Origin: a virus | IMG/VR virus record: IMGVR_UViG_3300021963_000584 | Span: 1-25,849 of that record | Direction: 5' to 3' (one strand) | Length of the DNA: 25,849 bases | Shown here: in pieces, positions 19,201 to 21,527 of the stretch | How positions within the stretch are numbered: the stretch's first letter is position 1 | Layout of the letters: each line of letters opens with the position of its first letter | Translations under genes and position numbers: made by a program | The notes under the pieces: generated by a model | What the model saw: only the letters and a program-made list of their open reading frames with translations | Databases searched by the model: none | Told to the model about the DNA's origin: nothing

Positions 19201-20238
19201 ATGGAATACCAAAGACCAATATACGACATTAGCATTAAGGAAGCCTTACATTTGGGGGTTGATGAAGTGGCATTTGTACACGACCCTGCGATGCAAGAAT
19301 TATTTGTGGCAATGGCCAACGAAATAACAAAACTATTATTATCTGAAGATGATAAGATGATAGTTACAGGACCAGCATTGGTTCCAGATAAACTTATCTA
19401 TCGTGTTCACCCAAAGACAGGTGCTGAATATTACATCCGTTTTAGTGAAGAAGTAATTCAACAAATTGTGCAAAGATATTTCACCCAAAACCGTCAAATT
19501 CATTTCAACCTGGAGCATAATAAAGAAAATGACGTACAAGGGGTTATTTTGGAAAGCTGGATAGTGGAAGACCCATCGATGGATAAAAGTGCTGCAATGG
19601 GCTTTAAACAGCTTCAAAAAGGTACATGGATGATAAGTGTTAAAGTTCAAAGTAAAGAATTCTGGAATGACTATGTAAAAACTGGTAAGGTTCGTGGGTT
19701 TTCAATAGAAGGTGCATTTGGTCAAAGCCTTGCTGAAGCAATGGCAAACCAGGAATTGGTTGAACCACATTCTGGTGAACACCAGGATGAATTTATTCCA
19801 CGTTGTGTTGCATATCATGTTGATAAAGAAAATATGGACCCCGATCAGGCAACAGCCATTTGCTATACCAAGTGGGATGAAAAGCTTAGGGTTGGTGAAA
19901 AAATTGGTTATGACTTTGATGGTACCATCAGCACCCGTATAGGCCAGGCAATGGCTGAAAAGGATATTAAGTCTGGTTCAACCGTTTACATCATATCAGC
20001 ACGTTCATCTGCATCTGGTATGTATAGAATTGCTGACAAACTTGGAATACCGCATGACCGTGTATTTGCGATGGGTGGTAACTTGGCTAAAGCTGAAAAG
20101 GTTAAAGAACTTGGTTTGGATACATTCTATGACAATAACAGAATGGTAAGACGTTTGCTTCCACGTGGTGTAGGTGTTAACTTCACCTTAAGTGAACAGG
20201 AAATTGAAATACTAATTAAAGCTGCGATAGAAGCATAA
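19201..20238 (+). CDS. Prohead protease (XkdF-like S78-type) fused to a HAD-like domain
   Basis: This 345-residue protein has two linked parts. Residues about 50-185 read as a phage serine prohead protease: MIVTGPALVPDKLIYRVHP, IHFNLEHNKEND (candidate catalytic H106), VILESWIVEDPSMDKS, GTWMISVKV, and GFSIEGAFG with candidate catalytic S168. Such proteases mature the head by cutting scaffold and capsid. Next comes DEFIPRCVAYHVDKENMDPDQATAICYTKW (about 197-225), a motif found at the end of phage head proteins and of unknown function. Residues 236-345 have HAD phosphatase motifs: DFDGT (238-242), ISARS with S266, K297/K300, and YDNN (310-313). The protease part is usually encoded beside the portal or capsid gene; here it follows the tape measure. 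Either the HAD part is active on a nucleotide or phosphopeptide, or it is structural. Confidence 0.85.
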   Translation: MEYQRPIYDISIKEALHLGVDEVAFVHDPAMQELFVAMANEITKLLLSEDDKMIVTGPALVPDKLIYRVHPKTGAEYYIRFSEEVIQQIVQRYFTQNRQIHFNLEHNKENDVQGVILESWIVEDPSMDKSAAMGFKQLQKGTWMISVKVQSKEFWNDYVKTGKVRGFSIEGAFGQSLAEAMANQELVEPHSGEHQDEFIPRCVAYHVDKENMDPDQATAICYTKWDEKLRVGEKIGYDFDGTISTRIGQAMAEKDIKSGSTVYIISARSSASGMYRIADKLGIPHDRVFAMGGNLAKAEKVKELGLDTFYDNNRMVRRLLPRGVGVNFTLSEQEIEILIKAAIEA

Positions 20239-20272
20239 AAAAAGTTTCAAAAAAATTTGGTGGATAAGAAAA
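20237..20272 (+). repeat. Inverted repeat, left copy (36 bp identical to 21146-21181 in reverse)
   Basis: The 36 bases, from A7-GTTTC-A7 through TTTGGTGGATAAGAAAA, recur perfectly on the opposite strand at 21146-21181. With mismatches, the match extends to 20286 and 21132. It includes the -33 element and the start of the spacer of the two facing promoters. The arms flank about 900 bp holding the ncRNA candidates and the AlkB gene. Confidence 0.95.
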
Positions 20273-20286
20273 TAGTCGTATCTTTG
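20256..20286 (+). promoter_or_regulatory. Promoter of Bacteroidota type (-33 TTTG, -7 TATCTTTG)
   Basis: TTTG (20256-20259), a 19-base spacer and TATCTTTG (20279-20286) match the Bacteroidota housekeeping promoter (TTTG, TAnnTTTG) perfectly. It points rightward, away from the virion block's last gene and into the convergent gene's end. No protein gene lies downstream on this strand, so it points to a small RNA. A-rich sequence upstream may act as an UP-like element. Confidence 0.8.
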
Positions 20287-20290
20287 TTGG

Positions 20291-20400
20291 GTCGTAAGGA
20301 AACAACGAAGGGCGAGGGTAAGACCACGAAGTAACTCAGAGGTACGTTGCCCAAAATTTCTAAACTTTTTTACAAAAAAAAGGGGCTTTAGGCCCCTTCT
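20291..20400 (+). ncRNA. Candidate small RNA between the convergent blocks
   Basis: A perfect promoter ends at 20286, so transcription should start near 20291 and would run to a T6 tract (20366-20371) or to the palindrome at 20380-20398. No start codon and frame of useful length exists. GC-rich for this genome, it contains a possible H-type pseudoknot: CAACG (20303-20307) with CGTTG (20345-20349), and GGGC (20310-20313) with GCCC (20349-20352), sharing one base. Size would be 80-110 nt. It might base-pair with a host or phage message, or with the convergent AlkB transcript's 3' end. No known RNA family was recognised. Confidence 0.5.
20373..20398 (-). terminator. Terminator of the AlkB-like gene, possibly bidirectional
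   Basis: Arms AAGGGGC (20380-20386) and GCCCCTT (20392-20398) form a 7-bp stem with a 5-base loop. Read leftward it is followed by eight T (the A8 run 20374-20381), a good rho-independent terminator for the leftward gene ending at 20402. Read rightward the T tract is weaker (TTCTGTTATTTT). Confidence 0.85.
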
Positions 20401-20401
20401 G

Positions 20402-20989
20402 TTATTTTATAGTTCTGAATGTTAGGTTTATTCTTGGCTCCGCATTCTTTTGTTTAGGTATGCAGTGTTCCCAGTCCTTTTGCATTTCCTCAGACATTAC
20501 CAATACACTTCTATCTTTTAGTTCGTAAGTGATAGTTTCTTTGGTGTGTTTGTTTCTAATTTTGAATTTGCGTGTACCACCAAATGAGAATGATACGATA
20601 GGCCCAGTCAATTCTGGTTCGTCATCTGAGTGCCATGCAATGCTGTGGTCACCATCTTGGTAGTAGTTACATAGTACAGCGTTAAATTTGTAAAATGGTT
20701 TACCTATTGCAACTGCGGCAACATTATTTAACATACTAAGATATGGTGTCCATTGGTTTGGTTGGCATACTATACCGCTATAGGTATATGTTTTGCCAGC
20801 GTCACCATAGTATGCTTGTAGGCGTGGGATGTTATGGGTTTTGCCATACAATTTTATTGTACGTTGTTCCCACAATAAGTCCCAAGATAATTCAGCGAAA
20901 AAGTCGATGCCGATACCATCCAATAGATGGTCCAAGATAACTACGTTCGCTTCTGCGTAGTTGTTGTCAGCTGTTATTGCATTTTCCAT
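20402..20989 (-). CDS. AlkB-like 2-oxoglutarate/Fe(II)-dependent dioxygenase
   Basis: The 195-residue protein has the full AlkB active site. H120 and D122 (WHSDD) and H175 (WEHCIP) bind iron; R186 in RINLTFR and R192 would hold 2-oxoglutarate. Other AlkB signatures are PRLQAYYGDAGKTYTYSG (residues 55-72), NYYQDGDHSIAWHSDDEPEL and SFSFGGTRKFKIRNK. This spacing is closest to the ALKBH2/3-type branch, which removes methyl groups from 1-methyladenine and 3-methylcytosine in DNA or RNA by oxidation. In phages it may repair alkylated genome or RNA. Its own promoter lies 4 bases upstream of the ATG (start at the ATG itself gives a leaderless mRNA), and a structured RNA transcribed from a second promoter runs into it. 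Length is normal for the family. Confidence 0.95.
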   Translation of the reverse strand: MENAITADNNYAEANVVILDHLLDGIGIDFFAELSWDLLWEQRTIKLYGKTHNIPRLQAYYGDAGKTYTYSGIVCQPNQWTPYLSMLNNVAAVAIGKPFYKFNAVLCNYYQDGDHSIAWHSDDEPELTGPIVSFSFGGTRKFKIRNKHTKETITYELKDRSVLVMSEEMQKDWEHCIPKQKNAEPRINLTFRTIK

Positions 20990-21027: not shown

Positions 21028-21127
21028 TATTAGTAATTTAGAATGGGTCTAAATAAGCAAAGTATAAGGCAGGGGTGGTTTTAGACCTTAGTTATCTTGT
21101 GAACAACCACCCTTCCGCTTATTGGAC
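21028..21127 (-). ncRNA. Candidate structured RNA or 5' regulatory leader upstream of the AlkB-like gene
   Basis: A perfect minus-strand promoter ends at 21132; the predicted first base is G at 21127, 4 bases later, exactly where the outer stem begins. Pairings, in + coordinates: AATAAGC (21052-21058) with GCTTATT (21117-21123); GGCAGGGGTGGTT (21068-21080) with AACCACCCTTCC (21105-21116), 11-12 bp with one bulge and one mismatch; and GGTCTAAA (21046-21053) with TTTAGACC (21080-21087), an 8-bp pairing between the hairpin loop and the 3' flank, forming a pseudoknot. It holds no useful reading frame. It is either a free small RNA of about 85 nt or a leader in front of the AlkB gene, which also has its own promoter. 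I do not recognise a riboswitch class. Confidence 0.6.
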
Positions 21128-21131
21128 AGTA

Positions 21132-21162
21132 CAAAGATACAGCTTTTTTCTTATCCACCAAA
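21132..21162 (-). promoter_or_regulatory. Promoter of the structured RNA (Bacteroidota type)
   Basis: Read leftward, TTTG (21162-21159), a 19-base spacer beginning GTGGATAAGAAAA, and TATCTTTG (21139-21132). It is the right arm of the inverted repeat shared with the promoter at 20256-20286. Confidence 0.85.
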
Positions 21163-21181
21163 TTTTTTTGAAACTTTTTTT
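21146..21181 (-). repeat. Inverted repeat, right copy
   Basis: Perfect reverse complement of 20237-20272, including the A-rich upstream region and -33 element of the promoter. Confidence 0.95.
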
Positions 21182-21220
21182 AAAAAAAATAAGAAAGGGC
21201 CAGATCGGCCCTTTCTTATT
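21182..21220 (-). terminator. Rho-independent terminator of the leftward small-gene operon
   Basis: A perfect 14-bp stem has arms at 21188-21201 and 21207-21220 and a 5-base loop. Read leftward it runs into eight T (A8 at 21182-21189, partly inside the stem base). It overlaps the stop codon of the gene at 21219 and insulates the downstream RNA promoter. Confidence 0.92.
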
Positions 21221-21527
21221 ATAACGCTTTTACTAATTCACTGAACTTTGCTTTGGCTAATTCAAGTGTTGGGCAATTGAACGCCCTATCATTACCAAAG
21301 TCATTATCATCTGGATACATGCAGAAGGCACCTTTAGCTGTTTCCATGTATCTGGCTTCAAAGACCACATAGTGGATATTACCATCGTAGTCTACCTGGT
21401 AAATAAAAACTGTTTCAAGATATTCTTCAATTTGGTTATAGTGTATCATCATTCTGATACCTTTTTTCTTATCGTCTGCGATATTACCTTTGCGGTGGAA
21501 TTGTTTAGGTAAGTGATGTAATGTCAT
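21219..21527 (-). CDS. Small hypothetical protein, function unknown
   Basis: The 102-residue protein starts at an ATG that overlaps the stop of the 36-residue gene upstream (ATGA), so it is translationally coupled. A basic N-terminal part (MTLHHLPKQFHRKGNIADDKKK) precedes a beta-rich middle (EYLETVFIYQVDYDGNIHYVVFEARYM) and a C-terminal helix (TLELAKAKFSELVKAL). The pattern Y-x-V-x-Y-D-G-x-x-H-Y-V-x-F-E-A looks like a small beta-sheet fold. I do not recognise a family. Confidence 0.7.
   Translation of the reverse strand: MTLHHLPKQFHRKGNIADDKKKGIRMMIHYNQIEEYLETVFIYQVDYDGNIHYVVFEARYMETAKGAFCMYPDDNDFGNDRAFNCPTLELAKAKFSELVKAL

Follow-up and report, generated by a model that had tools for sequence, protein, structure and literature searches.

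A structured non-coding stretch at positions 21028-21127 (minus strand) of the IMG/VR virus record IMGVR_UViG_3300021963_000584, delineated by folding, shuffles, and the list of open reading frames, forms the 5' part of a predicted transcript that leads into an AlkB-like gene. The analysis covered 25,849 nucleotides of this record, termed here the window. The stretch is read, with a probability of about 0.4, as a structured 5' leader belonging to an additional, longer AlkB mRNA, whose stability or translation it would affect. This reading is supported by a perfect promoter, by the lack of a terminator before AlkB and the presence of one behind it, by the absence of a coding frame, and by a three-stem score that none of 500 shuffles reached. 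It also draws support from the promoter module itself, which drives tRNAs and structured RNAs elsewhere, including a covarying pseudoknot in Riemerella phages.

The promoter of this transcript, P1 (TTTGGTGGATAAGAAAAAAGCTGTATCTTTG, 21132-21162, minus strand), reads TTTG-N19-TATCTTTG from 21162 to 21132, and is indeed the perfect Bacteroidota promoter that the initial annotation had described. It carries the -33 TTTG and the -7 TAnnTTTG of the Bacteroidota primary sigma factor promoters at the correct spacing (PMC6847099). Since the -7 box TAnnTTTG spans -12 to -5 in the mapped promoters of Flavobacterium (PMC9723704; PMC6847099), the predicted +1 is G21127, and transcription would start at about that position. 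The outer stem described below starts at 21123, four bases past the predicted +1; G21127 is the position named in the initial annotation, but it lies near the base of this stem and not, as proposed there, exactly at it. P1 comes directly after the terminator stem (21220-21188, minus strand) of the upstream gene (21219-21527). This terminator, found by terminator search and having a counterpart at the same place in a related phage (L025), insulates P1.

The three pairings reported in the initial annotation are all present on the minus strand. The outer stem, identified by pairing search, joins AATAAGC (21117-21123) to GCTTATT (21052-21058); in the RNA, AAUAAGC/GCUUAUU amounts to 7 bp, or 9 bp counting two G-U pairs. 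The inner stem, retrieved by both folding and pairing search, is formed by GGGTGGTT (RNA: GGGUGGUU; 21105-21112) and AACCACCC (21073-21080), and comprises 8 uninterrupted bp. Within its loop, GGTCTAAA (RNA: GGUCUAAA; 21080-21087) is complementary to TTTAGACC (RNA: UUUAGACC; 21046-21053) in the 3' flank, as shown by pairing search. This loop-to-flank pseudoknot helix has 8 bp, or 7 bp if the shared A21080 is kept by the inner stem. Of the sizes given earlier (7, about 11, and 8 bp), the first and the last stand, while the inner stem has 8 bp and reaches ~11 only across a small internal loop of the minimum free energy (MFE) fold. The two bases said to be shared by the first and third pairings are 21053 and 21052, common to the outer stem and the pseudoknot. 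The 3' strands of these two helices are contiguous (GCUUAUUUAGACC, 21058-21046), and no gap separates the pseudoknot 5' strand from the inner-stem 3' strand, like in classical H-type pseudoknots. The pseudoknot is a plausible prediction made from one sequence. Each pairing segment has a single exact match in the window, besides one unrelated AATAAGCGG, and a search for antisense targets elsewhere in the window returned no convincing site. A peptide-coding role was dropped: the longest minus-strand frame in the stretch is a 9-codon GTG frame, and there is no ATG frame of note.

The fold was compared with dinucleotide shuffles, using stem scores made of stacking energies only, pseudoknot penalties not being included. 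The two crossing stems score -28.6 kcal/mol against -19.0 +/- 2.6 in the shuffles, a value reached by 3 out of 500, and the three stems -38.8 against -27.0 +/- 2.9, reached by none (0/500). For the longer stretch 21131-21000, the score is reached by 3/200 (two stems) and 2/200 (three stems) shuffles. Among 68 promoter-proximal 100-nt stretches from the loci compared in the analysis, the present one has the best three-stem score. Along the record, the same three-stem score is found in 15 of 5150 sliding 100-nt segments, which correspond to about six other places and to the reverse complement of the stretch itself. The ordinary nested MFE is not significant (z -1.65). It reuses bases of the pairings above, AUAAG with a nearer CUUAU and UUUAGA with a downstream UCUAAA; by estimate, the nested fold differs little in stability from the pseudoknot, with which it competes. 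The three-stem fold moderately exceeds chance and is unusual, not extreme. What makes the stretch notable is its non-coding location immediately after a promoter.

These figures bear directly on a second reading, in which the stretch is a functionless transcribed spacer between two cassette promoters, with pairings arisen by chance. The equal-scoring places in the 25.8 kb and the MFE z-score speak for such an incidental fold, as do the lack of the RNA in relatives (see below) and the fact that the stretch was picked from the whole window. The same two figures count against the leader reading, together with the single sequence available and an AlkB start that is not clearly masked. On the other side stand the shuffles, none of which attains the three-stem score, and the first rank among the promoter-proximal stretches. 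Furthermore, a strong promoter followed by 100 nt of non-coding sequence is seldom kept by phages for nothing. An incidental fold is judged somewhat unlikely, yet a close rival of the leader reading.

The downstream gene (20402-20989, minus strand) encodes an AlkB-like 2OG-Fe(II) oxygenase (PF13532), recognised by Pfam scan and by its HSD and RINLTFR motifs. As previously noted, it possesses its own promoter, P2 (20994-21024, minus strand), found by motif search. The predicted +1 of P2 is the A of the AlkB ATG (20989), and its mRNA is therefore predicted to be leaderless, so that only P1 can supply a leader. The 4-nt spacing between the -7 box and the ATG is also observed in four IMG/VR loci (L007, 8362-8399, and L008-L010), apparently representing the same gene, whose phage mRNAs are likewise predicted to be leaderless. 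In Flavobacterium johnsoniae, leaders exceed 10 nt in 87% of the predicted transcripts (PMC6847099), which makes a leaderless AlkB mRNA a minority arrangement. The stretch is read as an AlkB leader because no terminator separates it from the gene: none was found between 21028 and AlkB, and the 3' end of the stretch lacks a U-run. A terminator is located at the end of AlkB (20378-20400, minus strand; terminator search), with a plus-strand terminator at the same place (20380-20398), and the P1 and P2 transcripts should both end at 20400-20378.

In the proposed mechanism, P1 would start the RNA at ~21127 and transcription would continue through AlkB to this terminator. The first ~80 nt are predicted to fold into the inner hairpin, probably supplemented by the loop-to-flank pseudoknot and the outer stem. 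This fold may protect the 5' end and/or set the translation of the leadered AlkB mRNA. P2 would make the leaderless form, and AlkB would hence be produced from two mRNA forms; ligand sensing is not implied. The AlkB start codon has a U at -3, not the favoured A, and predicted folding does not clearly mask the start-codon region by the leader.

Compact pseudoknots are the topology of leaders with H-type pseudoknot riboswitches, such as SAM-II and preQ1, and a ligand-sensing riboswitch before AlkB would share this general topology. The placement of a compact pseudoknot ahead of a gene for an enzyme, and a 3' hairpin (UUUAGA/UCUAAA) that could exchange with the pseudoknot, would fit such a device. 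However, the window RNA displays no expression platform, having neither a terminator nor a nearby start codon, and no conserved core; the downstream promoter of AlkB bypasses the element. Aptamers are normally the conserved part of riboswitches, yet no homologue was found before related genes in IMG/VR, phages, plasmids, or 395 Bacteroidota genomes, and no Rfam family matched at E<=10. The initial annotation had termed the architecture riboswitch-like; with no terminator switch, conserved aptamer core, or homologue, and with a P2 mRNA devoid of the element, this description is not supported, and a riboswitch is considered extremely improbable.

The searches for homologues and families were conducted at several levels, and could miss strongly diverged copies. 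Rfam yielded nothing relevant, either at the gathering threshold over the window or at E<=10 over the region, in agreement with the earlier statement that no known RNA class matched. DNA similarity searches in phages returned only promoters or short A+T-rich matches, the plasmid search with the RNA returned nothing, and the 395 Bacteroidota genomes searched with each cassette RNA gave short chance matches only. Among these, the match in the GGAAGGGTGGTTG part (L033) looks coding on the other strand (HNHPSG motif); the window's own plus-strand frame at this part gave an empty Pfam check. A single-sequence covariance model run on 24 phage or MAG records that share the promoter returned one match with an E-value of 0.96, taken as chance. 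A pattern search of IMG/VR with the inner stem and the pseudoknot gave two matches; the two contigs carry one and the same sequence, which seems to be coding and misses the rest of the layout.

The AlkB gene and the RNA belong to a cassette bounded by a perfect 37-bp inverted repeat, identified by repeat search (left arm 20236-20272, plus strand; right arm 21146-21182, minus strand). The cassette contains a plus-strand RNA, AlkB, and the minus-strand RNA, and each of the two inward-facing promoters has its upstream part within the repeat. A motif search located the second of these, a third copy of the promoter, at 20256-20286 (plus strand), at the opposite side of the cassette and pointing into it. 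It is predicted to produce a second non-coding RNA of ~110 nt (20291-20400, plus strand; promoter and terminator prediction), which holds no gene and is terminated by the AlkB terminator acting on the plus strand. Folding and shuffles revealed no significant fold for this plus-strand RNA. No homologue of it was found in the phage DNA search, in the 395 Bacteroidota genomes, or with an IMG/VR pattern, which returned no match at all. The two cassette RNAs pair with each other no better than shuffled ones.

Relatives sought through AlkB and through the helicase were not found. The protease retrieved two closely related phages, L005/L027 and L025/L026, as well as the distant L028; a protease-based search of genome contigs retrieved no relative. 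The best protease segment is 81% identical in L025/L026 and 68% in L005/L027. In both phages, the protease is followed by a small ORF of ~43 codons, a terminator, and then a homologue of gene 21219-21527; neither AlkB nor either RNA is found at this place. The AlkB cassette is accessory ("moron") DNA of a Bacteroidota phage, and the lack of RNA homologues fits its absence from the closest relatives.

This organisation also accommodates a stand-alone small RNA, cut or stopped near 21040-21028 and acting in trans, for example on a component of host defence or as a decoy resembling an antitoxin. In that case, two small RNA genes would lie beside AlkB in the cassette. The opposite inward promoter, which makes a geneless RNA with its own terminator, lends weight to this possibility, as does the use of the same promoter type for tRNAs in Alistipes and for a phage tRNA array. 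A precedent is provided by phage PhiTE, an RNA of which mimics the ToxI pseudoknot antitoxin and thereby counteracts host defence (PMC3475682). The type III antitoxin ToxI and the phage pseudo-ToxI are, like the window RNA, H-type pseudoknot RNAs (PMC3475682). ToxI units, however, measure about 36 nt and are arranged in tandem, type III antitoxins in general being tandem repeats of a 34-48 nt pseudoknot unit next to an endoribonuclease gene, whereas the window RNA is one ~80-nt unit with no repeats, and no toxin gene was recognised among the neighbouring proteins scanned. Its 3' end has neither terminator nor U-run, no homologue is found, and its plus-strand counterpart in the cassette is without significant fold. 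A stand-alone regulatory RNA, the other option put forward originally, would lack a terminator before AlkB; it is rated somewhat unlikely and, like the incidental fold, a close rival of the leader reading.

The promoter module, TTTGGTGG followed by an A-rich spacer and TATMTTTG, has close variants at unrelated loci that are followed by stable or structured RNAs. It precedes a tRNA array in Maribacter phage Panino, an Rfam c4-2 RNA in L018 (42.5 bits), and, in two Alistipes MAGs, what we read from the sequence as a tRNA-like gene. At other loci, it simply precedes genes. The module is hence a strong general promoter, and not the mark of a single RNA class. In L018 (3706-3790, minus strand), the c4-2 RNA (RF02944) lying behind the module has an upstream segment, UCAUCAAGCG, complementary to its loop, and is followed by a 346-aa ORF. 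In L014 (1-760, minus strand), a contig of 190,908 bases, two tandem copies of the promoter are each followed by UACNAUNGUUCUUUGAAAGUAUUG, which resembles the boxA of rRNA leaders; these UACNAUNGUUCUUUGAAAGUAUUG copies open long, apparently non-coding, structured stretches.

A leader of ~150 nt lies behind the same module in Riemerella phage RAP44 (L004:2552-2715; also L050, L051, L052, and L053). It harbors a 14-bp stem (GUUAAACCAUCGUG in RAP44, GUUAAUCCAAGUGC in GRNRAP2/CRP5, and GUUCAAACAAGAGC in CRP34/CRP19), with a perfect complement ~100-115 nt downstream. The stem varies in concert among the three phage types, and so does a crossing helix of 9-11 bp that joins its loop to the flank before the start codon. 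The next gene carries, at its start codon, a second copy of the initial 11-12 bases of this 5' strand (AUGUUAAACCAUC, AUGUUAAUCCAAG, and AUGUUCAAACAAG), and the 3' strand can therefore pair with either the leader or the start site. The residues encoded at these repeats differ (LNH, LIQ, and FKQ). The second gene downstream carries an antirepressor or KilAC annotation in RAP44, CRP5, CRP34, and CRP19. The control of c4-icd-ant in phage P1 follows the same logic, and the resemblance of the Riemerella leader to c4-type antisense control of an antirepressor operon is a lead, not a proof; no c4 model of Rfam matches this leader, and the concerted change of its repeats could also reflect operator DNA. 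For the promoter-driven pseudoknotted RNA envisaged in the initial annotation, the leader of the Riemerella phages provides the best positive control. This unnamed leader, not present in Rfam, shares with the window RNA a near-identical promoter module, a start a few bases behind it, and a stem combined with a loop-to-flank pseudoknot. In contrast to the window RNA, it is longer, covaries, and has its 5' strand repeated at a start codon, and the two have no sequence similarity.

The c4 family (Rfam clan CL00128; c4-2 is RF02944) likewise consists of promoter-proximal phage RNAs in which two segments are complementary to one downstream segment, and its L018 member shares the promoter module of the window RNA. 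In a c4-like antisense system, AAUAAGC and GGUCUAAA would bind GCUUAUU-UAGACC (21058-21046) in another or the same RNA copy, in the manner of the a' and b' segments of c4. The complementarity of two separated segments to a single uninterrupted one further downstream, and the same module preceding both c4-2 and the c4-like covarying Riemerella leader, are consistent with such a system. However, the c4 and c4-2 covariance models do not match the window RNA at E<=10, L018 serving as positive control. While c4 targets a translation start, the complementary segment of the window RNA lies ~57-69 nt before the AlkB ATG (20989), and no copy of it is found at the AlkB start codon. Moreover, c4 controls an icd/antirepressor pair, whereas the gene following the window RNA is AlkB (PF13532), not an antirepressor, and P2 escapes the control. 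A c4-like mode of action is consequently held to be very improbable.

The window RNA is so far a solitary promoter-proximal structured phage RNA. A more far-reaching proposal, which we regard as improbable, is that it represents a new class of phage RNA with a pseudoknot, expressed at high level from a promoter of the stable-RNA type, and either acting in trans against a host function or controlling AlkB by exchange between the pseudoknot and the nested fold, while the plus-strand RNA of the cassette would be another, unrelated small RNA. Should the RNA prove real, the accessory cassettes found in Bacteroidota phages can encode not only proteins but also non-coding RNAs, transcribed from tRNA-type promoters, and AlkB would be made from both a leadered and a leaderless mRNA. 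Few phage regulatory RNAs are known in the Bacteroidota phylum, and the TTTGGTGG...TATMTTTG module, which precedes structured RNAs in several phage groups, offers a handle for finding them.
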